A DNA stretch of 10,099 nucleotides from Candidatus Methylomirabilota bacterium (GTDB lineage Bacteria; Methylomirabilota; Methylomirabilia; Methylomirabilales; Methylomirabilaceae), in NCBI GenBank assembly GCA_016200385.1, contig JACQEV010000197.1, forward strand, positions 1 to 10,099, read 5' to 3'. Both the position numbers and the translations under genes were made by a program. The notes under the pieces were generated by a model. That model had not been told where the DNA came from, did not search any database, and saw only the letters and a program-made list of their open reading frames with translations. Below, piece after piece: positions 1-10,099 of the stretch (its first letter is position 1; each line of letters begins with the position of its first letter).

Positions 1-2058
1 CGCCTCGGGCGCTTTTAAATCCTTTCTGGCTCTCCGAAGGCGGGCTTCCCCCTTCCGCACGAGCCCCCTGACCTCCTTCAGCCCTCGCTCGATCCCCTTC
101 ACCCAGTCCTGCAGCGGCTTCAGGTAAGTCTCGTCATGGCACTCCAGACACTGCTTCGTCACGGCCTGGCGCGAATGCTTGACCTGGACGTTGTGGCATC
201 CGACGCAGTCCGTCAGCTCCGCGTGGTTGCCCGGTGTCGGCTCAACCCCCTCTACCTCGACGGTACCGGTGAAGAATGCTTCTTGGATCTTATGGCAGGC
301 AAGGCAGCGTTCGTTCTTGTTTCCAGCCTTGTGATGGCAGCTCAGGAAAGAATCCCTGGTCGCGGTAACTTCCTGGTGCTGCTCGGCAGAGTGACAGGCC
401 GTGCACGTGACCCCGAAGTCGGTCACATGGCGTACGTGGGGGACCGTCTCGGCTCCAAACTTCACCTCCTCCGGAGCTTCCACCCCCGCCTGTTTGTGGC
501 ACAGAACGGCGCAATAGCCGCCCCGGACGAGGGTCTCCTCTGAACTCTTCGCGGGCGGCTTCCCTATGGCCACCATAGACTCGTCCAGGTAGCTATTGGC
601 GACTTTCAGAAGGTCCGCGGCGAAGAAGACGTTATGAACCCCCTTGCCTCGCTTGACGAAGTTCACATTCTGGCTCGCGTCGGCGACCAACCTCCTGGCC
701 CTCGCCAACTGGGGGTGATTCGGCGCGGTCGCCGCCAGGGCCTGCTCCACCGGCACGAGCTTGCCCTTGACCGCAGTCGTCATGCTATCGATGGTCTTGG
801 ACCAGTTGTCCAGCATCCCCTTGTACTGCCCGCCGTGGCACTCCAGACAGGCACGCTCCGATGGCCGGAACGTCTGCCCGACGATTGCGGCCTCTGTGCT
901 TTCCCGCTCTGGCTCCACATGGCAGGCCACACACTCCACCCTCACTTGCAGCATGTGGCTGGGGATCATCGGCGTGCCTTTTCCCCCGATGCCCATGTAC
1001 ATCTGGAGAACCCCACGGTGGGTGGCCTGATGGCAGATCTTGCATTCGAGCTCGCGCTTTCCTCTGGGAGGGGGATGAGCCTCCGGCATTTTCTCTGCGG
1101 GCGGCCGCCCAAGGCCCCTCGGTTGAGCTTGTGCAATCCGGTCCGCTGCTTCGGCGCTGGTGGGCTCAGTTAGCCACTCCAGGAGCCAGCTCACAGTCAA
1201 CCCAATGGGGGGCGGGAGCTTGTGCCTGATCTCGCTGTGGCATCGGGTGCACTCGATGTTGTGCCTGGCCACGTGGAAATCATGGATGAATGGGGTGTCG
1301 GCGTACTTCTCGAGCTTCTCCGGCTGGTTGTGGCACGTGTAGCAGCGCTCTCTGGGGGCCTCCCCGTTCCCCTCGACCACATTGAGGTGGCACTTCACAC
1401 ATGCGACCCCACGCTTCACCAGCGAGTCGTGGTTGAAGGTGAAGGGACCCACCTCGATGTCTCCCTTAGGCGGAGTATGGCACAGGGGACAGCCGCCGAG
1501 GGGGTGAAACTCCCTCGGGGTCTTCATCCCCTTGAAGTGACAGAGGAAACAGGTAGTGACGGTGACCTCAATGTGATTCCCCACTACGATCTGGGAGTGG
1601 CAGCTCGTGCACCGGAGCTGCCGTCCTCTGCGCACTCCTTTCAGATGGGGCGCATGGTCAAAGATGATCTGTCGTTTGAAGGCGACCTTGCCCTCGAGCA
1701 GGCGGCGCTCATGGCAACCCGAACGAAGGCAGCTCGCGTCCTCTACCTCGGCGAAGGGCTTCGAGTTATAGGTCTGCGTTGCCCATTTCGCCACCTGGGC
1801 CAGGGCCTGGTATTTGACCCAGAGTGTCCCGCGAAGCTCAGGGGGATAGTGGCAATCAACGCAAGGGACGTTGTTGTGCTTGGAGGTCTTCCAGGCCTGG
1901 ACGTAGGGTTTCATGATATGGCAGGAGTTGCAGAGAAGCGGACTCGCACTGAGCTTGTAGAGCCCCGTGAGCGCGAGGCTACCAATGCCTAGAGCGATAG
2001 CCGTAGTGATCAAGGAGATGCGTCCCCACCAGCGCCGGGTGGGCCGCTGTTCAGCCAT
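1..2058 (-). CDS. NapC/NirT-type multiheme cytochrome c, ~17 heme sites (3' end outside window)
   Basis: The frame is open for 686 codons from ATG 2058 to the window edge with no stop, so the C-terminus is missing. AGAGG lies 5 nt before the ATG and overlaps the stop of the gene upstream. One N-terminal membrane anchor (residues 14-34) is followed by CNSCH (43) and CVDCH (66), with the spacing and M-K-P-Y context of NapC/NirT/NrfH quinol dehydrogenases. Thirteen more CXXCH motifs follow (150, 170, 190, 220, 239, 270, 339, 376, 404, 552, 585, 618, 637), plus a CX4CH at 110 and a CX3CH at 516. A lone S-C-H-H at 573-576 looks like a lost site. Helical, heme-poor segments lie at 410-510 and 643-683, the first with a G-V-H-N motif (473-476). 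Typical NapC/NrfH proteins carry only 4-5 hemes, so this is a greatly extended member. Inferred role: membrane-anchored electron transfer between quinol and periplasmic cytochromes. The specific partner is unknown. Confidence 0.88.
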   Translation of the reverse strand, partial: MAEQRPTRRWWGRISLITTAIALGIGSLALTGLYKLSASPLLCNSCHIMKPYVQAWKTSKHNNVPCVDCHYPPELRGTLWVKYQALAQVAKWATQTYNSKPFAEVEDASCLRSGCHERRLLEGKVAFKRQIIFDHAPHLKGVRRGRQLRCTSCHSQIVVGNHIEVTVTTCFLCHFKGMKTPREFHPLGGCPLCHTPPKGDIEVGPFTFNHDSLVKRGVACVKCHLNVVEGNGEAPRERCYTCHNQPEKLEKYADTPFIHDFHVARHNIECTRCHSEIRHKLPPPIGLTVSWLLEWLTEPTSAEAADRIAQAQPRGLGRPPAEKMPEAHPPPRGKRELECKICHQATHRGVLQMYMGIGGKGTPMIPSHMLQVRVECVACHVEPERESTEAAIVGQTFRPSERACLECHGGQYKGMLDNWSKTIDSMTTAVKGKLVPVEQALAATAPNHPQLARARRLVADASQNVNFVKRGKGVHNVFFAADLLKVANSYLDESMVAIGKPPAKSSEETLVRGGYCAVLCHKQAGVEAPEEVKFGAETVPHVRHVTDFGVTCTACHSAEQHQEVTATRDSFLSCHHKAGNKNERCLACHKIQEAFFTGTVEVEGVEPTPGNHAELTDCVGCHNVQVKHSRQAVTKQCLECHDETYLKPLQDWVKGIERGLKEVRGLVRKGEARLRRARKDLKAPEA

Positions 2059-2072
2059 CGATTCCTCTCCTC
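2059..2072 (-). promoter_or_regulatory. Short intercistronic gap with Shine-Dalgarno
   Basis: Fourteen bases separate the two large cytochrome genes. On the minus strand the stop TGA (2075-2073) runs directly into GAGAGGAGAGG, which ends 5 nt before the ATG at 2058. This supports co-transcription and probable translational coupling. Confidence 0.7.
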
Positions 2073-4214
2073 TCAGCTACTTAAGGGCTTCGACGTGTCG
2101 TCATGTGCCTGAGCCCTCGCTCCGGTCTCTGTCGCCAGGATCTCATCCAACTCGGCGGGATGCTCCTCGGCCATCTGCTCCCCGGTCAGCTTCCCAGACA
2201 GCCACACCCAACTCATCGGGTACACGTCCGGCCGGAAGATCACGCTATAGAAGTGCCAGACGAGTATGGCAAGCGTTGCCAGCCAAGCCTCATAGTAATG
2301 GATGACTGTGGCCACGTCGATGGTGAGAAGAGGCCAGCGCCGAAGGACCGCCGACTGGAACCACATGATGAAGCCGGTGGCGGCCATCACGAATGTGCCC
2401 CAGACCACCGCCCAGTACTCCAGCTTCTCAACATAGTTAAACCGCTGGAAGCGCGGCAGCGACTGGCGCCGGCCCAGGTTGAACGCCAACGTCCACAATG
2501 CCTCTTTCACGTCCCGGAACCCCGGCAGCATCGCCCGTAGCTGGGATCGTCCCCGCTGTGTGCCGAAGACATAGACCAGGTGATACACGGCTGCCAGGGT
2601 CAGGAGGACTCCCGCGATCCGATGGGTCCAGGCCCGGATAGCATAGCCCCGCTCGATCCAGACCAATGGTCGCGCCCACCAGCCCTCCGGGAATTTCAGC
2701 GCAAAGCCGCTGATTGCCAAGATCGTGAAGGTGGACAGCAGGACGAGGTGCTGGATACGCTCGTTGACCGTCAGGCGCTCAAAGAGCCGACCCGCTACCT
2801 CCGGGGCAACATGGGACCTCGCGCGCTCACCTAGCATGTCTGCCCGCCAGCGCTCTCGCAGGCGCGTCACGAAGTCCAGCCCGTTGTGCAGGCTCATTCC
2901 ACCGATCGTCACGAGAATGATCCCGAGATAGAGACGCCGGATCAGGGCCGCCAAAGGATGCTCCCCGAAGCCGGGCGCCACATGGATCTTTGCGCTGGCC
3001 AACTGAACGCCGGCACCTGGATGACACTGCCCACAGGTGCGTGGCAAGTTCAGCGGATTGATGGTGGAGTGAGGATTGGAGGAAGGGAGAATGTTGTGGG
3101 TCCCATGGCAACTCGCGCAGTTCGCCGCGACCCCTGATCCGCCCCGGACTGCGAGGCCATGAAAGCTTTCGGCATAGGTCTCAAGCCGGCCGCTCGGGAT
3201 CCCATACTTCTCAATGATCCCCTGTGCCTCGTGGCAACTCGAGCAGGTCTTGGACACGGCCGCGACGCTCACACGGGAGGCCGGATCGCGAGCCGCGGCG
3301 ATGGAGTGCTCCCCGTGACAGTCGGCACAGACCGGCGACTTGGTCACTCCATTTGTCACGGCGATGCCGTGGACGCTTTCGAGATATGCCTTCGCTTCCT
3401 TGGCGTGACACTGGCCGCAGGTCCGGGGGATATTGTCCCGATAGATGGACGACCTGGGATCATTCGCCCGTCGGAGGTCATGACTCTCGTGACAGTCGTT
3501 ACAGGTGGCGGCCTGTTTCCCGGCCGCCACGGCCCGAGCGTGGACGCTCTTTTGATACAGTTGATAGGCCTGCGGAATAGGGATCCGCCCGCGCTCCACG
3601 ATGGCGCGGTCGGCGTGGCAATGCCCGCAGGTCTCAGCGGTGCGAGAATGAAAGGTGGGCGATTGGGGATCTTTGTGACTGCGGAGGCGATGAGCCTCCC
3701 CATGACAATCGAAGCAGAGCGCGGCGTCCTGACTTCCCCTGGCAAGTGCTTTCGCATGGACACTTCCCAGGTATTCCCGTGTCACCTGCCCGTGACACTC
3801 CCGGCACGGCTCCGCCCCCAGCTCGGCAGCCCGCCTCATCGCATGGGTTCCATGACAGCTCTGGCACTCGACCTCCGCCTCCGCCGGCGCATGGATGCTG
3901 CCGGCAAAGACCTGTGACAACTTAACGTGACACTTCTGGCACGAGACCGGAGGGAGCTTCTCCTCGTGCGGGGTCTCCGTGATGCCCACATGACAGTCGG
4001 CACAGACCTGTGCTTTATGCGGGGACCGTGCCAAGGGAGCACGATCGACCTCGTCGTGGCAGCCTAGACACTCCTCGTCGGAGACGGGCGGCTCCTCGGA
4101 AACCGCCGCATACACATCCAGAACCCCGATCAGAAGGAGCGCGAGAAAACAACCCGCAATAACTTCTCCCCAGACCGGGAAACAGCGTTTCAAGTGAAAA
4201 ATGCGCAACCGCAA
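2073..4214 (-). CDS. 13-heme cytochrome c fused to cytochrome b561-like membrane domain (CbcL-like architecture)
   Basis: The protein has 713 residues. It has an N-terminal signal/anchor (about 15-37), thirteen CXXCH motifs (49, 71, 92, 117, 137, 167, 196, 238, 266, 296, 324, 366, 394), then a membrane domain with helices near 423-447, 486-505, 528-550, 597-620 and 636-660. Histidines placed for b-heme ligation include H443, H489, H531, H545, H639 and H654. The middle of the heme region repeats a unit of about 58-72 residues (T-C-G-x-C-H, a variable stretch, S-V/F-H-G/A, then a second CXXCH). A multiheme c domain fused to a HydB/b561-type diheme domain is the architecture of Geobacter CbcL, an inner-membrane quinone oxidoreductase, though with more hemes here. 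Inferred role: quinone/periplasm electron exchange. The start is uncertain: an in-frame TAG lies at about 24 bases upstream, and the first usable codon is TTG 4214 with only a weak G-rich ribosome site. TTG 4208 or 4193 are alternatives. Confidence 0.9.
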   Translation of the reverse strand: MRLRIFHLKRCFPVWGEVIAGCFLALLLIGVLDVYAAVSEEPPVSDEECLGCHDEVDRAPLARSPHKAQVCADCHVGITETPHEEKLPPVSCQKCHVKLSQVFAGSIHAPAEAEVECQSCHGTHAMRRAAELGAEPCRECHGQVTREYLGSVHAKALARGSQDAALCFDCHGEAHRLRSHKDPQSPTFHSRTAETCGHCHADRAIVERGRIPIPQAYQLYQKSVHARAVAAGKQAATCNDCHESHDLRRANDPRSSIYRDNIPRTCGQCHAKEAKAYLESVHGIAVTNGVTKSPVCADCHGEHSIAAARDPASRVSVAAVSKTCSSCHEAQGIIEKYGIPSGRLETYAESFHGLAVRGGSGVAANCASCHGTHNILPSSNPHSTINPLNLPRTCGQCHPGAGVQLASAKIHVAPGFGEHPLAALIRRLYLGIILVTIGGMSLHNGLDFVTRLRERWRADMLGERARSHVAPEVAGRLFERLTVNERIQHLVLLSTFTILAISGFALKFPEGWWARPLVWIERGYAIRAWTHRIAGVLLTLAAVYHLVYVFGTQRGRSQLRAMLPGFRDVKEALWTLAFNLGRRQSLPRFQRFNYVEKLEYWAVVWGTFVMAATGFIMWFQSAVLRRWPLLTIDVATVIHYYEAWLATLAILVWHFYSVIFRPDVYPMSWVWLSGKLTGEQMAEEHPAELDEILATETGARAQAHDDTSKPLSS

Positions 4215-4347
4215 CCCACGGTCACAAGCCCACTATGCGTAAGTTCACCAAGGACAAGCAAGGCAAGAGGTGACTTCCACAGCAAACTCTCATGCTGGCC
4301 CCAGGTTCAGACTTGGAGGCTATGCTCAGTCCCGCACAGAGGTGGGG
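4215..4347 (-). other. 133-bp intergenic region, no clear signal
   Basis: This is the widest gap in the cluster, between the triheme gene and the 13-heme/b561 gene. I see no strong hairpin with a T-run and no convincing -35/-10 pair. A poor candidate on the minus strand (TTGCTT ... CATAGT) is too weak to call. A 23-codon ORF (4222-4293) ends 7 nt before the TTG start of the next gene, but it lacks a good ribosome site. Confidence 0.5.
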
Positions 4348-4836
4348 CTACCCTTTTTTCTCTTCTTTGTGGCACTTCTGGCAGGTCTCCTTTTCCTTTT
4401 CCTTCTCCTTTACAGGATAGATTTTGAATGAATCGTCCCCGTTATGACACTTGCCGCATCGCTTCCCATCCACATAGGCCTTCATGTTCATATCGGGGGT
4501 CTTTCCCTTCTTGGTTTGGAAGAGTTTCTCTGGACCCTTGCCCTTATGGCAGGTGGCGCACTTCGCTTCCTTCGCTTTCGCCTCATACTTCGGGTCATAT
4601 TTGTACTTCTCGGCCTTCCCTGAGTGAATGTTGTGATCGAATGTCACCTTCCCCGAACTTAATTTGCCGTCCTCATCTTTCTCCTTCTGCTCAAAGGTAA
4701 AGGGGGCCGGGATCTTGGGCTTTTTCCCTGGTTTTTCTTCTATGTCGTCCTGGGCGAATCCATACCCCACAGAGAAAGCCACGCCCAGGAAGCACGGTAG
4801 GACCAGCGATGCGATCATCCCGGCTTTATGTTTCAT
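4348..4836 (-). CDS. Periplasmic triheme cytochrome c (c7-type triheme domain), Lys/Glu-rich
   Basis: The product is 162 residues from ATG 4836. A GTG one codon further upstream is rejected because it would sit only 2 nt from the GGAGG. A signal peptide (1-28, F-A|Q) precedes a charged linker, then F-D-H-N-I-H (66-71), CATCH (93), the M-N-M stretch (116-118), C-G-K-C-H-N-G (127-133) and CQKCH (152). The order F-x-H-x-x-H, CXXCH, M-x-M, CGxCHxG, CXXCH is the pattern of the c(7)-type triheme domain, repeated in some Geobacter-type multiheme proteins and related to class III cytochromes. H68 and H71 are candidate distal ligands. Likely a small soluble periplasmic electron shuttle. Codon use is more A-rich than in neighbours, driven by lysine and glutamate; the highly basic product could suit docking to acidic multiheme partners. 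The very strong ribosome site suggests high translation. Confidence 0.88.
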   Translation of the reverse strand: MKHKAGMIASLVLPCFLGVAFSVGYGFAQDDIEEKPGKKPKIPAPFTFEQKEKDEDGKLSSGKVTFDHNIHSGKAEKYKYDPKYEAKAKEAKCATCHKGKGPEKLFQTKKGKTPDMNMKAYVDGKRCGKCHNGDDSFKIYPVKEKEKEKETCQKCHKEEKKG

Positions 4837-4840
4837 CACT

Positions 4841-4849
4841 ACCTCCTTT
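4841..4849 (-). promoter_or_regulatory. Strong Shine-Dalgarno for the triheme cytochrome
   Basis: The minus strand reads AAAGGAGGT, a near-perfect anti-16S complement, 4 nt before ATG 4836. It is the strongest ribosome site in the window and decides the start over the GTG at 4839. Confidence 0.8.
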
Positions 4850-4864
4850 CATCTGAATGGTTTC

Positions 4865-4896
4865 CAACAAGGAACCCTCAACGGGTCCCCTTGTTG
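4865..4896 (-). other. Intercistronic mRNA hairpin over the stop of the diheme cytochrome gene
   Basis: On the minus strand CAACAAGG pairs with CCTTGTTG (8 bp). Inside that, ACCC pairs with GGGT around a 5-nt loop (GTTGA), with one G-U pair and one bulged base between the two stems. The stop codon (4880-4878) lies within the loop and inner stem. The sequence after the stem (GAAACCATTC) is not T-rich, so a Rho-independent terminator is unlikely. A role in mRNA processing or 3'-end stabilisation, setting different expression for the genes on each side, is inferred. Confidence 0.6.
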
Positions 4897-5534
4897 CGGT
4901 CAGCCGATGTCTTCAGGAATGTCACCAGGTCCACCATCTCATCCGCCTCGAAACGTGGATACTCTGTTCCCAACTGCTCCGCCTTGGCGCGCATCTTGGG
5001 AGCATGGTCCCAGACGCCTGTGGCCCAGTCGAGTGGGCTGTTGTACACGGTGCTGCGGCTCAGATCCGGGCCGACTCCAGCCCCCTCCCCAAAGAAGCGA
5101 TGACACTTCAGGCACCCCTTTTTCAAGAGGAGCACCTGGCCCCTTGCCACGCTCCCCGGCGGATCCGCGCCTGGCCGCGCGAGAAGGAAGGCAGCGAGAT
5201 CGGCCATCTCCTTCCTGCTGAGCGTCGGCCAGGCTTTTCCGCGTTCGGCGAACTGCAGTTGCATAGCCGGCGCATGATTCCACAACCGACCAGCCAGCTC
5301 AAGCAGTCCCTGCCGCCGCTGCAACGTTGCCAGGGGCGGGCCGATCTCCTTCGGTTTACCCGGCGGGACGTGGCACTGGATACACCGCTTCTCCTCGAAC
5401 AGGCGGTGTCCTTGTTCTCGGTCGCCTTCGGGTGACTCGGCCGACCATAAGAGATCGGCCGGCAGTAGGAGCAGCACCGCCATGAAGAGAATCGCTATGT
5501 TTGGCCTAATGAGCCTCTGCCCGATATCGCGCAT
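4878..5534 (-). CDS. Diheme class I cytochrome c, tandem-domain
   Basis: The protein has 218 residues, with a signal peptide or anchor at about 10-32. Two cytochrome c class I domains follow: one at 38-120 with C-I-Q-C-H (51-55), and one at 128-208 with C-L-K-C-H (141-145). Each domain carries a matching H-A-P-x-M element (87-91 and 177-181) whose methionine is the expected sixth ligand, and each ends in a helix of the form E-M-x-D-L-x-x-F-L. The halves therefore look like an internal duplication. Met-ligated class I cytochromes usually have a higher potential than the bis-His multihemes around them, so this is a plausible electron acceptor for the Rieske/cytochrome b complex in place of cytochrome c1. 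That role is inferred from context. Start ATG 5534 has only a weak ribosome site (GAG), which is odd beside its neighbours; see the candidate promoter just upstream. Confidence 0.88.
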   Translation of the reverse strand: MRDIGQRLIRPNIAILFMAVLLLLPADLLWSAESPEGDREQGHRLFEEKRCIQCHVPPGKPKEIGPPLATLQRRQGLLELAGRLWNHAPAMQLQFAERGKAWPTLSRKEMADLAAFLLARPGADPPGSVARGQVLLLKKGCLKCHRFFGEGAGVGPDLSRSTVYNSPLDWATGVWDHAPKMRAKAEQLGTEYPRFEADEMVDLVTFLKTSADRNKGTR

Positions 5535-5540
5535 GGGCGG

Positions 5541-5570
5541 ACTCTAATCCGCTCCGTTCACTCATGTCAA
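5541..5570 (-). promoter_or_regulatory. Candidate sigma70-type internal promoter before the diheme cytochrome
   Basis: On the minus strand TTGACA (5570-5565) matches the -35 consensus exactly. After an 18-bp spacer comes TAGAGT (5546-5541), matching 4 of 6 bases of the -10 consensus. A second TTGACA lies 7 bp upstream (5577-5572). The expected transcription start falls on or beside the ATG at 5534, which would give a leaderless or nearly leaderless mRNA. This fits the lack of a good ribosome site there. It rests on pattern only and could be chance. Confidence 0.3.
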
Positions 5571-5591
5571 TTGTCAACAGCGGGCGCATTG

Positions 5592-6863
5592 TTATCCGGA
5601 AGGTCCCCGACGATCGACTTCTCGGATCTTGAAGAAGAGCCCGATGAGCGCAGCCGCGATGACGAGCAGAGAGGCCGCCAGCCCCTTGCGGCGGAACTGC
5701 AACTGGACCATCAGCTCCTGGCCCTTCTTGACAGTCTTCTCTGCGATCACGACCGCAGGGGTGGTGAGGGTCTTGATCCTCTTCACTTTGACCAAATGTG
5801 TTTCCGCCCGGGCCTTGATCAGAGCGTCTTTCGCCTCAATGAGCTCAAATCGAGGAGGACCTACCTCCATGCCTGCGTGCTCCGCCCTGGTCAGGATCGC
5901 CTCGGCCCGGTCGATGCCTTTGGCGAGGTCCTGGAGAAGGGTCCGGATCTCGTTGGCCTTTTTGAGCTCCGAGGAGTTCTCCTCGTGGCACGTGGCGCAA
6001 GGGGTGTCCTTCCCTCCGGCCAGCAGCTCATCCGACGGCTTCAGAACCTCGTGATTGCCGTGGCACGTGACGCATGCGGGCTGCCCAAGATCGCTGAACG
6101 CCTCCTCGTGCACGCTCTTCGCAAACAGCTCCGCCACAGCAGCATGGCAGTTGCTGCAGACATTGGCCACCGAATCGACCCCAGGAGGAGTGGCGCCGTG
6201 GTTCCCGTGGCAGCTCGGGCAGGTGGGAGCAGAGATGTCACCCTTCTTGGTCAAGACCTCATAATGGATACTCTTCTCATAATTCTTCAACTGATCCGTA
6301 GGGATCTTGTAGTCTTTCATGTACTTGGCGTCAGCGTGACATCGGCTACAGGTCTCGGCAACCTGGATGGGATACGTCCAGGCCGCCTGGTCCTTGATGG
6401 CGCGAATGGCATGCACGTCATGGCAACTGATGCAGACGGCAACGTGTTTGTCACCCTCGCGCAGCTTTTGGCCGTGAACGCTGGTGTAGTACTCCTTCAC
6501 CTGGTCAGTCCGAATCTTTGGATTGAATTTCCGCATGTAGCGGGGATCACTATGGCACTTCCCGCAGAATGCTGGGATATCTTGCCGCTTCGGTTTACCG
6601 AGGAACCCTTTGGCGCGGCTGTGGCTGGCCTCCTTGTTGTCGAAGGCGGTGTGATCGCCCCCGTGGCAGTCCTGGCATTTGAGTCCTCGGATCATGTGGT
6701 AGTCATCAGCGATTTTCTTGACCGGACGGCTGAGGCGCTCTTCCTTCAACCCCTTGTGGCAGTCGATGCAGGCATGCATCGCTTCCGCAGAGGGGACGGG
6801 TAGCAGGAGACAGGGGGCGGCCATGAGAAATCCGAAAAGGGCGACTCGTAGGGCGATCCTCAT
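5592..6863 (-). CDS. 9-heme cytochrome c with coiled coil and C-terminal membrane anchor
   Basis: The start is set at ATG 6863: GAGG lies 5 nt upstream and overlaps the stop of the cytochrome b gene, and a clean signal peptide (1-28, S-A-E-A) follows. The longer frame begins with a TTG inside that gene. The 423-residue product has nine CXXCH motifs (32, 63, 100, 144, 172, 215, 236, 264, 289). A heme-free, charged, helical stretch (295-388, likely coiled coil) and one transmembrane helix (394-411) with a basic cytoplasmic tail (F-K-I-R-E-V-D-R-R) end the protein. The heme domain is thus held on the periplasmic side of the inner membrane from its C-terminus, the same topology as cytochromes c1 and f. 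Placed directly after cytochrome b, it is the best candidate for the c-subunit of this complex (inferred). Heme-pair repeats resemble those of the 13-heme protein at 2073-4214, suggesting common ancestry. Confidence 0.88.
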   Translation of the reverse strand: MRIALRVALFGFLMAAPCLLLPVPSAEAMHACIDCHKGLKEERLSRPVKKIADDYHMIRGLKCQDCHGGDHTAFDNKEASHSRAKGFLGKPKRQDIPAFCGKCHSDPRYMRKFNPKIRTDQVKEYYTSVHGQKLREGDKHVAVCISCHDVHAIRAIKDQAAWTYPIQVAETCSRCHADAKYMKDYKIPTDQLKNYEKSIHYEVLTKKGDISAPTCPSCHGNHGATPPGVDSVANVCSNCHAAVAELFAKSVHEEAFSDLGQPACVTCHGNHEVLKPSDELLAGGKDTPCATCHEENSSELKKANEIRTLLQDLAKGIDRAEAILTRAEHAGMEVGPPRFELIEAKDALIKARAETHLVKVKRIKTLTTPAVVIAEKTVKKGQELMVQLQFRRKGLAASLLVIAAALIGLFFKIREVDRRGPSG

Positions 6864-6870
6864 GACTGCC

Positions 6871-7959
6871 TCATTTGGGACCCGGTGCAAGGTACCCTAG
6901 AGCAGTGAACACGGCGATGTAGAGGATAATGCCGATCCCGGTCCATCGAAAAAGCGGGCTAGGCTCGCCCAGAGCGGCCCTTTTGTCGAGAAAGGGAACC
7001 AGGAAGAGGAACAGCCCGCCCAGGCCGAACCCCATGACTCCCAGGACTTCGCCATCAAACGGGCCGACCCTGGCCGGAATATACTTCAGCGTCTGAAACA
7101 TGAAGACGAAGTACCATTCCGGGCGGATGCCGGCAGGCGCGGACGCAAAGGGGTCAGCCTTCTGCCCAAGCTCCCATGGGTAGATCGCCGCCAGCGCAGC
7201 CAGCACTCCCAGTGCGGCGAACCAGCCGAAGAGGTCCCTCAGCAGGAAATTGGGGGCGAACGGCATCGTCCTGATCGGTTGCTGGGCAGAGGCCCGCTCC
7301 ACGTCCGGCGGAACGCTCATCCCCTGCTGTTGGACCAGGAACAGGTGGAGGCCAAGGATCAGCGTGGTCAGCAACGGCAGGATAGCGATGTGGAGCCCAT
7401 AGAAGCGCGAAAGGGTCCCGCCTGTGACCTCGTCGCCACCCCTGAGGAACCTGACCAGGGTATGACCGACGACCGGGACTTGGCCAGCCACGTTGGTCCC
7501 GACCTTGGTAGCGAAAAAGGAAAGGACATTCCATGGCAGGAGGTATCCGCTGAACCCAAACGTCAGGACGATGGCGAATAGGAGCATACCCGTCACCCAG
7601 GTCAGCTCCCGCGGTTTCCTGTAGGCTTGGGTGAGGTAGACGCTGAACAGGTGGATCATCATGGTCGCCACCATCAGGTTGGCGGACCAACTGTGGATCG
7701 ACCGGACAAGCCAGCCGAACTGGACCTCGGTCATGAGGAACTGGACGCTCTCGTACGCCTCCTCGGCGCTGGGCCGATAGTAAAAGGTCAAGAGGATCCC
7801 GGTCACGACCTGGATCACGAAAAGGAAGAGGGTCATCCCCCCGAAGTAGTACCAGATGGTGTGGTGGTGGACCGGGACGACCTTCTCCTGGAGGAGATGC
7901 CTGAATGCCCCGAGGTCAATCCGCTCCTCGAGCCAATCCACGACGCGGTTGACGCTCAT
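6871..7959 (-). CDS. Cytochrome b of Rieske/cytochrome b complex (b6 plus subunit IV fused)
   Basis: The 362-residue membrane protein has about seven helices (34-60, 81-108, 119-140, 183-208, 241-260, 303-322, 338-357). The first four match cytochrome b6 and the last three match subunit IV, here in one chain. The b-heme ligands are H89/H103 (13 residues between) and H190/H205 (14 between, the b6-type spacing rather than 13 of mitochondrial bc1). P-E-W-Y (280-283) marks the quinol-oxidising Qo site. The b6f cysteine that holds the extra heme c(n) is absent: the aligned F-Y-C-x-G-G is W-Y-Y-F-G-G here (36-41, Tyr38). It lies 6 nt after the Rieske stop and 7 nt before the 9-heme gene. The ribosome site is weak, consistent with translational coupling. 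Role: transmembrane quinol oxidation, or the reverse reaction, with the Rieske protein. Confidence 0.95.
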
Positions 7960-7965
7960 CCCACA

Positions 7966-8412
7966 CTACGCCTTCATGACAGTGATCTGGTCCCCCCGCA
8001 TCTTCACCTGTAGAGGGTCCAGGGGCCGGGGCGGCGGACCGCTGATGTTCTTCCCGTTCAGATCGTACACGCCGTTGTGGCAGGCACACCAGATGACCTG
8101 CCGATCTTCCCGATACTGCACCGTGCAGTCGAGGTGCGTACAGATCGCTGAAAAGGCCTTCAGCTCGCCAGCCGGCGTCTTGATGAGGAGCCCTGGCCGA
8201 CTTCCGAAACGGAAGACCCGCCCAGAGTTCACCTTCACCTCCGTGGCCTTCCAGGGGATGGTCACGCTGAACGAGGTCGGCTCTGCGAGCTTTGGCGGGC
8301 TCAGGTACTTTACGATCGGATAGAAGATAGAGATGAACAGCGCGCCAAGGCTTGTCCCGAGGAACAGATTCACCAATCGCCGTCCCTGATCAACCCGCTC
8401 TTCTATCTGCAA
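7966..8412 (-). CDS. Rieske 2Fe-2S protein of the cytochrome b complex
   Basis: The 148-residue protein has one N-terminal transmembrane helix (about 13-34) and a periplasmic Rieske domain. Cluster motifs are C-T-H-L-D-C (91-96) and C-A-C-H-N-G (109-114): C91, H93, C109 and H112 should bind the 2Fe-2S cluster, and C96/C111 should form the usual disulfide. A G-P-P-P-R-P-L loop (125-131) is typical of the fold. The open frame extends to 8706, but that part overlaps the HAO-like gene in another frame and is not coding. TTG 8412 is preferred because GGAGGG lies 7 nt upstream. GTG 8430 (154 residues) is the alternative; it overlaps the stop of a mini-ORF as GTGA. The residue after L in box 1 is Asp rather than the common Gly, which may affect the cluster environment. 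It transfers electrons from the Qo site of the adjacent cytochrome b to a c-type cytochrome. Confidence 0.93.
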   Translation of the reverse strand: MQIEERVDQGRRLVNLFLGTSLGALFISIFYPIVKYLSPPKLAEPTSFSVTIPWKATEVKVNSGRVFRFGSRPGLLIKTPAGELKAFSAICTHLDCTVQYREDRQVIWCACHNGVYDLNGKNISGPPPRPLDPLQVKMRGDQITVMKA

Positions 8413-8419
8413 AGTTACT

Positions 8420-8427
8420 CCCTCCTT
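8420..8427 (-). promoter_or_regulatory. Shine-Dalgarno deciding the Rieske TTG start
   Basis: The minus strand reads AAGGAGGG, ending 7 nt before TTG 8412. No comparable site precedes the GTG at 8430. Confidence 0.6.
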
Positions 8428-8471
8428 CACGCTCGAAAAGGGAAAGTCGGCCCACCCGACAACAGATTCAC
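8427..8471 (-). CDS. Possible 14-codon leader ORF before the Rieske gene
   Basis: In the 83-bp gap after the HAO-like gene, GGAAGGAG (8486-8479) stands 7 nt before a GTG (8471), which opens 14 codons encoding M-N-L-L-S-G-G-P-T-F-P-F-R-A and a TGA (8429-8427). The TGA overlaps an in-frame GTG of the Rieske frame (8430) in a GTGA arrangement. The good ribosome site suggests it could be translated and might couple or tune Rieske translation. It could equally be chance, and I recognise no product. Confidence 0.25.
   Translation of the reverse strand: MNLLSGGPTFPFRA
8446..8460 (-). other. Small hairpin between HAO-like and Rieske genes
   Basis: On the minus strand GTCGG and CCGAC pair around a GTGGG loop, followed by TTTCCCTTTT. 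The 5-bp stem is weak. It could act as a partial terminator or processing point between the first gene and the rest, but full termination is unlikely. Confidence 0.25.
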
Positions 8472-8495
8472 TTTCGTTCTCCTTCCGACCCCGAT

Positions 8496-9974
8496 CTATT
8501 TCTGCTCGCCATACCGGCTCTTGTAGAAATCCTGGATCTTCTGCAACTGGTCCTTGCTCATTCCCTCCTTGTGCCATTTGTGGCCAGGTTGGGAGTAGAC
8601 GTACTTGTCCAGGAGCTGCGTGGCCAACGGCTCGCCAGCCACCTGCTTCACCTCCGGGATGAAGTGCAAATAAAAGGTTTTCGCCACCTCGTAGATGCCG
8701 TGCCACCAGGCATAGTCCGGCCCGGACATGGAGGCGCCGTGGCGAGCCCGCCGCCCTTCGTGATGCCAGAGTTCATAGTAGATCCAGTCAAGCTTCTCAT
8801 CAAAGGGGGCCGGGGTAATCTTGCCGGCCTTGGTCAGCTCCTGCATGATCGCTGTGGCCGGCCGCGCGAACTTCTCGTTGTACAGATCCACGAGATTGTC
8901 AAACTGCTTGTAGAAGCCGGTCACCTGGCCGGTGGAGTGGCACTGGCTGCACACATCCTGCATCCGTTCCCGTCGCTGTTTCCAGGTCAGGACTTGGACA
9001 ACCTTACGGACCTTGCCATCTTTGGCCTTGATACTCTCCCCCACCTTCGGGAGCGGGACCCCCTCGGGCAGATCTTCCTTCCACAGATCCTCGAACACGA
9101 TCATGTTCAGTTTGGTGGAGATCGCGGGCCTGAGCGTCCAACTGATGCGTTCCCCTACGTCGTGGGTCACACCGAGGGTCGGGGTCGCGCTCATGTGGCA
9201 GGTCGCACAGGTTGGCGCCGCGGTATAGTCCACACCGACGGTCCACTTGTCGCGCTCGATATTCAGGTTGCGCTTATTGGCCTCCCAGAGGATCCCGTGC
9301 TTGGACTCCTGATAGACCTCGATCTGGGGATGGTCCGGTCCCAGATGACACTTCCCGCAGGTCTGGGGTTCCCGCGCCTGGGCCTTGGAAAAGCGATGTC
9401 GGGTGTGGCAGGCGCTGCAACTGCCCCAGCTCCCGTCAGGGTTAATCCTGCCGATGCCGGTGTTAGGCCAGGTCTCCGGGTCGAACTTACCCTCCGGCAG
9501 GACCCGGATGGTGGAGCCATGACACTGATAGCACCCGACGGCCACTGCCGGCGGGCCCCCGACCACCTCACCCAGGAAGTTATCCAACGACGCCAGGATC
9601 TGGCCGGCCTTGGCGTGATGGCTCCCCTTCTGCTCGTCCACCTCTTTCTGGTGGCAGCGGGCGCAGTCTTTGGGCGACACGATCACGGCAATCAGCTCCC
9701 CCTCGTGATCGAACGCGTCCGGATCCCCCTTCTCTGCCCGGTGACAGTCGAAGCAGTTCACCCCCTTCTGCCCGTGCGCTCCGAGACGCCACTCCTCGAC
9801 AAGGCCCACGTTCTGCGTGGTATGGCACTGGATGCACTCCCTGCCCTCCTCGGCCCCCCAGGTCGCGCGCGGGGGCTGGGCCAGAGCATCGTGTCTTCCC
9901 CGCCAAATCGAGGCGGCAAAGCCCATCAAGACGACGGCTGTTACGCATACAGCAAGAGGAAGGCTCCGCCTCAT
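8496..9974 (-). CDS. Octaheme cytochrome c of the hydroxylamine oxidoreductase (HAO) family
   Basis: The 492-residue exported protein has a signal peptide or N-terminal anchor (about 7-33). Eight CXXCH motifs lie at 47, 74, 104, 148, 186, 206, 256 and 342. Family marks are C-S-A-C-H-T-R-H-R-F (186-195), C-G-K-C-H-L-G-P-D-H-P-Q (206-217), S-K-H-G-I (224-228), C-A-T-C-H-M-S (256-262), H-D-V-G-E-R-I-S-W-T-L-R-P (271-283), R-H-G-A-S-M (411-416) and G-P-D-Y-A-W-W-H-G (418-426). The fourth motif (C-Y-Q-C-H, 148) corresponds by order to the catalytic heme. No C-terminal membrane helix is seen. HAO relatives oxidise hydroxylamine (to NO or nitrite) or hydrazine, or reduce nitrite; the direction depends largely on a tyrosine cross-link to the active heme, which I cannot assign without alignment. 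The start ATG 9974 has AGGGAG 7 nt upstream. It is first in the apparent operon, next to the Rieske/cytochrome b genes, implying quinone-linked catalysis. Confidence 0.88.
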   Translation of the reverse strand: MRRSLPLAVCVTAVVLMGFAASIWRGRHDALAQPPRATWGAEEGRECIQCHTTQNVGLVEEWRLGAHGQKGVNCFDCHRAEKGDPDAFDHEGELIAVIVSPKDCARCHQKEVDEQKGSHHAKAGQILASLDNFLGEVVGGPPAVAVGCYQCHGSTIRVLPEGKFDPETWPNTGIGRINPDGSWGSCSACHTRHRFSKAQAREPQTCGKCHLGPDHPQIEVYQESKHGILWEANKRNLNIERDKWTVGVDYTAAPTCATCHMSATPTLGVTHDVGERISWTLRPAISTKLNMIVFEDLWKEDLPEGVPLPKVGESIKAKDGKVRKVVQVLTWKQRRERMQDVCSQCHSTGQVTGFYKQFDNLVDLYNEKFARPATAIMQELTKAGKITPAPFDEKLDWIYYELWHHEGRRARHGASMSGPDYAWWHGIYEVAKTFYLHFIPEVKQVAGEPLATQLLDKYVYSQPGHKWHKEGMSKDQLQKIQDFYKSRYGEQK

Positions 9975-10076: not shown

Positions 10077-10099
10077 GAGGCTCTCATAGGGAGAGCCTC
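10077..10099 (-). terminator. Likely Rho-independent terminator of the upstream gene
   Basis: GAGGCTCTC and GAGAGCCTC form a perfect 9-bp stem around a 5-nt loop. On the minus strand it is followed by TTGTGTTGTTGTGG, a T-rich but interrupted tail. It would end a minus-strand gene lying beyond the right edge, just upstream of the cytochrome operon. The window stops exactly at the stem, so possible use in the plus direction cannot be judged. Confidence 0.6.

Follow-up and report, generated by a model that had tools for sequence, protein, structure and literature searches.

We report a composite respiratory gene cluster on a 10,099-bp contig from Methylomirabilota, in which the gene for an octaheme HAO-family protein (HAO8) stands upstream of genes for a Rieske protein, a cytochrome b, a nonaheme cytochrome c (MHC9), a diheme and a triheme cytochrome, a 13-heme protein with a b561-type membrane domain (CbcL13) and a NapC-type multiheme protein (NapC17). 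The window analysed (G000:C370:1-10099) is assumed to be the whole contig; it comes from a metagenome-assembled genome (MAG), G000, of 2.21 Mb that is 81% complete. HAO8 stands where most relatives in the genus keep MtrA-MtrB, an outer-membrane conduit made of a porin (MtrB_PioB) and a decaheme cytochrome (MtrA-like). We consider it fairly probable that HAO8 carries out quinol-driven reduction of nitrite (or hydroxylamine) through the Rieske/cytochrome b complex. Pairing of HAO with Rieske/cytochrome b is already known from Kuenenia and Caldithrix; what is new here is the host cluster and the exchanged module.

A probable reductive-type octaheme protein

HAO8 carries its heme motifs in one chain. 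Across 28 family rows, no variation occurs at any of the 24 heme Cys/His columns or at residues around the active site. A hydrophobic stretch at the N-terminus is either a signal or an anchor. The best solved relatives by sequence are PDB 4qo5, then HAO, reducing HAO-like proteins and HDH. All 11 Foldseek matches of an HAO8 model at E<=0.001 were HAO-family proteins, with 4qo5 again at the top and the reducing Kuenenia complex Kustc0457/0458 next (PDB 6h5l, so named in the Foldseek table, which is not Kuste4574). We take 4qo5 to be the octaheme cytochrome of the archaeon Ignicoccus hospitalis. The model (pLDDT 68.9, TM score ~0.4) was too weak for the residues around heme 4, so that the tyrosine question was approached by alignments.

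The P460-type cross-link tyrosine of oxidative HAO and HDH is not present at the aligned position in HAO8. Tyr467 of Nitrosomonas HAO, presumably the cross-linking tyrosine, was counted on a printed alignment bridged via the M. oxyfera HAO-like protein; its column aligns with Trp423 or Trp424 of HAO8 (one-column ambiguity), and the nearest Tyr is residue 421. Among 57 aligned family rows, column 424 is Trp in 56 (one gap) and column 416 is Met in 52 and His in the other five. This alignment and the corresponding tree took only rows with exactly eight CxxCH and the heme-5 motif; partial or odd genes (e.g., those of L013, L016, L136, L143, L149 and L152, and the HAO of L135, which is longer) were excluded. 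It has been reported, in the relevant passages of PMC8940962, that Campylobacterota-type Hao has a Trp in place of the tyrosine and, eight residues earlier, a Met, and that absence of the tyrosine cross-link predicts reductive catalysis; the same rule is given in a passage of PMC12758564. Met416 and Trp424 reproduce this epsilonHao signature, which points to HAO8 as a reductive, epsilonHao-type protein, and nitrite is probably what it reduces.

HAO8 was also considered as the known Methylomirabilis HAO. We rejected this identity, as blastp gives 29% identity to the M. oxyfera HAO-like protein (L025/L064), which belongs to another clade. That protein (L025:1471-2757, G005), assumed to be Damo_2473, has Trp, or Leu by another alignment, and not Tyr at the cross-link position. 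The M. oxyfera-type protein has been described as equipping the cell for hydroxylamine oxidation (a passage of PMC6094997).

The genus cluster and its exchanged neighbor

MHC9 was detected in 67 of 388 sampled genomes; within the genus, 12 of the 14 other members have it. Forty stretches around this gene were taken and MHC9 was re-scored in 39. Same-strand genes up to 9 kb away were cytochrome b (36 loci), Rieske (33), CbcL-like (25), triheme (20), NapC17-like (16), MtrA (13), MtrB (12) and diheme-like (5), and HAO8 occurred beside MHC9 at none of these 39 other loci. The 12 loci of the genus all had the CbcL-like and triheme genes, 10 had the Rieske gene (the two others were cut by contig ends) and six had a NapC17-like gene.

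The cluster of M. oxyfera runs MtrA, MtrB, Rieske, cytochrome b, MHC9, triheme, CbcL and NapC, with an MtrB that matches PF11854 (E=6e-114). The shared genes follow the same order as in the block and are 73% (Rieske), 79% (cytochrome b), 66% (nonaheme), 54% (CbcL) and 72% (NapC) identical in sequence; however, M. oxyfera has MtrA-MtrB_PioB upstream instead of HAO8, and its MHC9 and triheme genes are not separated by a diheme gene. None of the genus relatives has a diheme gene at that position; some relatives of the order or class do have the gene (L081-L083). MtrB is upstream of Rieske at nine of the 12 genus loci, and two more (L071 and L084) are cut by contig ends. At the twelfth locus (L070:1561-7717, G004), an ArrA/PhsA-like molybdoenzyme, NrfD, and cytochromes with a four-heme class-I repeat and with a single heme lie between MtrB and Rieske. 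These arrangements suggest that such respiratory clusters accept different end enzymes.

Since the neighborhoods of HAO8 and MHC9 do not overlap at the other loci examined, we read the block as composite and reject one conserved eight-gene system. The first-pass annotation had treated HAO8 and its neighbors as one set, to be doubted if HAO-like genes regularly stood apart in homologous genomes. They do stand apart from the 9-, 13- and 17-heme proteins (0/36 and 0/39 loci), but not from Rieske/cytochrome b, which accompanies six of 36 HAO8-type genes, albeit with another cytochrome b lineage.

Another member of the genus, G008, has two tandem MtrA-MtrB pairs upstream of Rieske (L075:959-7943), and its second porin is 31-36% identical to M. 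oxyfera MtrB.

A predicted quinol-oxidizing Rieske/cytochrome b complex

The Rieske protein has its two Cys and two His ligands, and the cytochrome b has two pairs of b-heme His (89/103 and 190/205, spacings 14 and 15) and PEWY, the Qp-site motif of Rieske/cytochrome b complexes, at position 280; the complex should therefore oxidize quinol. In b6, the cysteine of the YC motif binds heme cn; here the motif reads YY and the whole 362-aa chain contains no cysteine, implying no covalent heme cn. The second Rieske motif is CHNG, compared with the usual CHGS of high-potential proteins and CHGG of the Thermus protein. CHNG may give a lower potential suited to menaquinol.

MHC9 is the multiheme partner that adjoins Rieske/cytochrome b in relatives as well. 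CbcL13 has the architecture of the CbcL/MtrH/MtoC family, its 13 CxxCH motifs being followed by PF01292 at residues 485-661. The NapC/NrfH domain of NapC17 scored 34.9 bits against a PF03264 cut-off of 24.1, and its 15 CxxCH, one CxxxCH and one CxxxxCH are far above the number in tetraheme NapC. Uncut genus relatives of NapC17 reach 731-732 aa with 16 CxxCH, compared with 686 aa and no stop codon here.

HAO8-type genes in other genomes

Close homologs of HAO8 were limited in the phylum to two of 95 genomes at E<=1e-60, and a family profile found G000 only. In the second genome (G018), the gene is a fragment truncated where the contig stops and is preceded by a gene for pyruvate:ferredoxin oxidoreductase, and the MHC9 contig ends inside cytochrome b; it is possible that G018 shares the layout of HAO8 plus block. 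Further homologs carry the names Nitrospira, Pseudolabrys, Stellaceae and Rhizomicrobium, which makes transfer of the gene between lineages probable. In addition, the pair P0001/P0356, an HAO8 of 97% identity and a short (425 aa) CbcL homolog of 83% identity, is apparently on one contig, the longest contig being of 41,442 bp for each. Another HAO8 homolog, P0002, is 96% identical.

Context was assessed at 36 loci with a scorable HAO8-type gene, several of them from close relatives (e.g., Desulfomonile), counting genes on the same strand within 8 kb. Partners were NrfD-type proteins (10 loci), NapA-like proteins (8), Rieske plus cytochrome b (6), a pentaheme membrane protein (3) and an ammonium transporter (1; PF00909, E=1e-125), and MHC9, CbcL13, NapC17 or MtrB were found at none. 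One NapA neighbor passed the NCBIfam cut-off (1014 versus 904 bits), and the other NapA-like proteins tested scored below it. The ammonium transporter and the nitrate reductase neighbors lead us to favor ammonification as the product route of HAO8.

Five loci have the gene order Rieske, cytochrome b, HAO (Rieske by Pfam in all five, cytochrome b by blastp). Their cytochromes b form one clade (support 100/97) separate from the MHC9-type cytochrome b of the contig, and the Rieske/cytochrome b label requires three changes on the HAO tree. Thus, HAO8 apparently became paired with Rieske/cytochrome b independently here, and with another Rieske/cytochrome b lineage. The cytochrome b of HAO8 locus L141 is placed next to these five on a long branch (90/86).

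In the L141 region (L141:1-9343, G136), the HAO8-type gene is followed by genes for a Pyr_redox_2/Fer4_20 protein, a Rieske-like protein, cytochrome b, a 10-heme protein and a NapA-like enzyme, in an arrangement reminiscent of the NAD(P)-linked Rieske/cytochrome b complex of Kuenenia. At L144:4020-9637 (G298), two ammonium-transporter-like genes directly precede the HAO8-type gene and a pentaheme membrane protein follows it; related pentaheme proteins (30-31%) occur in L149 and L151.

Proposed electron path and alternatives

In the reductive reading that we favor, quinol would be oxidized at the Qp site of the Rieske/cytochrome b complex. One electron would pass from the Rieske center to MHC9, which would take the place of cytochrome c1/f, then to small c-type carriers and HAO8, whereas the other would enter the b hemes and drive proton translocation. 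Periplasmic reduction of nitrite by HAO8 would yield ammonium, hydroxylamine or nitric oxide (NO). CbcL13 and NapC17 would give electrons additional entry points at the membrane, presumably with different potentials. The first-pass annotation had proposed a quinone-linked system that oxidizes or reduces a nitrogen compound; the quinone link is supported, and the active-site signature favors reduction over oxidation.

Several points weigh against this reading. The layout of HAO8 plus block was found in one MAG only, the match in the only other phylum genome being the cut fragment of G018, and the neighbors of the homologs of 80 and 75% identity, from Ca. Methylomirabilis sp. and Ca. Methylomirabilales (P0023 and P0068), are not visible. 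None of the queried partners was detected at 15 of the 36 HAO8-type loci, some of which have short flanks. Neither NapA nor AmtB is encoded within the 10,099 bp. The contig ends just upstream of HAO8, and MtrAB could lie beyond this end or in the missing 19% of G000.

The presence of MtrB beside the same module at 12 of 39 loci, together with the molybdoenzyme near the same place in L070 and the title of 4qo5 (hypothetical multiheme protein), would suit a set that serves extracellular electron transfer or another acceptor, with HAO8 as a mere relay or acting on a non-nitrogen substrate. We consider this unlikely for G000, in which MtrA and MtrB were not found at 81% completeness; the invariant active-site region of HAO8 and the NapA and AmtB neighbors of HAO8-type genes elsewhere also argue against it. 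The extracellular role suggested in the first-pass annotation suits the MtrAB-carrying relatives more than it does G000.

Alternatively, HAO8 could oxidize hydroxylamine or another reduced nitrogen compound and feed the quinone pool via the multiheme proteins, like the hydroxylamine:ubiquinone redox module (HURM) of nitrifiers. HAO8 does belong to the HAO family, several relatives are labeled 'hydroxylamine dehydrogenase' in their source annotation, and CbcL-type proteins are thought to be bidirectional (a passage of PMC6295460). However, the cross-link tyrosine is missing, no pmoA/amoA-type gene was found in the 81% complete G000 compared with 10 of 15 genus genomes, and partners of HAO8-type genes elsewhere include nitrate reductases and quinol dehydrogenases, which makes oxidation quite improbable. 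That HAO8 is a chance neighbor, an independent gene for detoxification of NO, nitrite or hydroxylamine ahead of the cluster, would fit the 83-bp gap before rieske, the 39 MHC9 loci lacking HAO8 and the 15 HAO8-type loci lacking partners, but is hard to credit given that HAO8 and the block share one strand and close spacing and that Rieske/cytochrome b pairs lie near HAO8-type genes at six of 36 other loci.

Comparison with known systems

The parallel to Kuenenia drawn in the first-pass annotation stands. In passages of PMC12954380 and PMC12485887, the Kuste4569-4574 complex of Kuenenia stuttgartiensis includes an octaheme subunit of the HAO-like kind, for which nitrite reduction has been proposed; experimental evidence for the activity of Kuste4574 is lacking according to PMC12485887. 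Complex and block have in common a Rieske protein, a cytochrome b of the b6 type, a multiheme cytochrome replacing c1/f and an HAO-like octaheme protein. The complex differs in its split b6/subunit IV, heme cn and NAD(P) oxidoreductase, whereas the block has a fused cytochrome b and no NAD(P) oxidoreductase subunit among its eight genes. The CbcL-, c7- and NapC-type proteins are extra in the block.

The passages of PMC5317091 on the nap locus of Caldithrix abyssi describe Rieske/cytochrome b (Cabys_2558-2557) beside a tyrosine-less epsilonHao (Cabys_2556), as in our block, and include quinol to Rieske/cytochrome b to Hao among the electron paths proposed. Unlike HAO8, however, this Hao is in a nitrate reductase locus and on the opposite side of the Rieske-cytochrome b pair, and those passages mention no nonaheme/CbcL/NapC block.

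EpsilonHao/reverse-HURM ammonification systems (Nautilia and others) have a quinol-linked reductive Hao too. They have Hcp downstream and use a quinol donor different from the Rieske/cytochrome b of the block. Their Hao shares with HAO8 the Trp for tyrosine and the Met eight residues before (PMC8940962, same passages). Members of the CbcL/MtrH/MtoC family have 3 to 23 heme motifs and are described as quinol oxidases or quinone reductases (a passage of PMC6295460). CbcL13 resembles them in its multiheme N-terminal part and b-type membrane domain, with 13 hemes versus nine in Geobacter CbcL. Among the titles and abstract beginnings returned by searches of open-licence literature, none described an HAO gene next to a Rieske/Cbc-type cluster in Methylomirabilota, and 'Rieske' and 'bc1' are absent from the main text of the M. 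lanthanidiphila paper (PMC6094997).

Features of the contig

According to the open reading frame (ORF) listing, the eight genes (Table 1) are all on the minus strand and occupy 96% of the contig. The block contains 50 CxxCH, one CxxxCH and one CxxxxCH, i.e., 52 candidate c-heme motifs; the six-frame CxxCH count of the contig is likewise 50, and 50 mononucleotide shuffles gave a six-frame mean of 0.66 and a maximum of 3. The first-pass annotation had listed eight consecutive electron-transfer genes with about 52 c-heme sites, among them an HAO-family octaheme protein, Rieske/cytochrome b, a CbcL-type fusion and a NapC-type protein. These counts were confirmed, and Pfam and NCBIfam searches agreed with the assignments.

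Table 1. Genes and other features along the 10,099-bp contig
Feature	Position	Strand	CxxCH	Properties
HAO8, octaheme HAO-family protein	8496..9974	-	8	492 aa; PF13447/PF13435; Trp424, Met416
Rieske 2Fe-2S protein	7966..8412	-	0	~148 aa; PF00355; ligands CTHLDC...CACHNG intact
Cytochrome b, one chain with b6-like N half and subunit-IV-like C half	6871..7959	-	0	362 aa; PF00033 + PF00032
MHC9, nonaheme cytochrome c	5592..6890	-	9	Multiheme families; C-terminal hydrophobic stretch
Diheme class-I cytochrome c	4878..5534	-	2	218 aa; PF00034 in two stretches
Triheme c7-type cytochrome	4348..4839	-	3	163 aa; PF14522
CbcL13, 13-heme N-terminal part and b561-type membrane domain	2073..4214	-	13	713 aa; PF01292 + multiheme families
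NapC17, NapC/NrfH-type N-terminal part, then multiheme chain	1..2058	-	15	686 aa; PF03264 + multiheme families; truncated at contig end
Terminator-like hairpin, 9 pairs	10077..10099	-		~100 bp upstream of HAO8, at contig end; consensus match only

The Rieske start is a TTG chosen from a Shine-Dalgarno-like stretch and relatives of 151 aa, the ORF being open to 8706. The start codon of MHC9 is uncertain; its ORF, as listed, extends into the cytochrome b gene. From strand, spacing and synteny, we infer that the block is one operon. The upstream hairpin weakly suggests that the transcription unit starts with HAO8; the scan found 27 terminator-like sites versus 6.9 expected in shuffles. Rfam and tRNA scans of the 10,099 bp gave no matches.

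Host genome

We infer that G000 belongs to the same genus as the methane-oxidizing Ca. Methylomirabilis oxyfera. In line with this, the cytochrome b of the contig is sister to 11 genus members in the cytochrome b tree (95/91). Given this placement and a GC content of 54-64% along the contig, contamination of the bin was judged unlikely.

Because G000 is 81% complete, no single gene absence there counts as proof. The MtrB query matched 11 of 15 genus genomes and missed G000, G006, G010 and G011; neither MtrA nor MtrB was found in G000 or on the contig, the MtrA query having no positive control by the same tool. NirS gave weak matches only. G000 has an aa3/caa3-type oxidase, with subunit I at 608 bits (below the NCBIfam cut-off of 671) and subunit II above the cut-off; PF00115 matched one oxidase and one further protein weakly, in a search not aimed at NO dismutase itself. 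MtrB and pmoA were both unfound in G000, G006, G010 and G011, three of which are only 80-83% complete, and these four genomes may represent a non-methanotrophic subgroup.

Implications

The strongest new points are the modular exchange, with HAO8 at the place where most genus relatives keep MtrAB and one also has a molybdoenzyme, and the apparently independent pairing of a reductive Hao with Rieske/cytochrome b. Tentatively, the Rieske/b-nonaheme-CbcL block may be a general quinol-side hub into which end modules (MtrAB, the ArrA/PhsA-like molybdoenzyme or octaheme Hao) are plugged at one place; the Hao swap would then amount to proton-translocating nitrite ammonification in an NC10 bacterium without methane-oxidation and outer-membrane-conduit genes. 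We regard this as possible rather than probable.

For anammox bacteria and Caldithrix, it is so far a proposal that Rieske/cytochrome b complexes can pass electrons to octaheme enzymes that convert nitrite. A second Rieske/cytochrome b lineage beside Hao, apparently joined independently, provides comparative support for it and a new test case. If our reading is correct, nitrite respiration that does not involve NirS and NO dismutase may occur in some NC10 bacteria, and clusters that are read as extracellular-electron-transfer systems could serve soluble acceptors once the end module differs.

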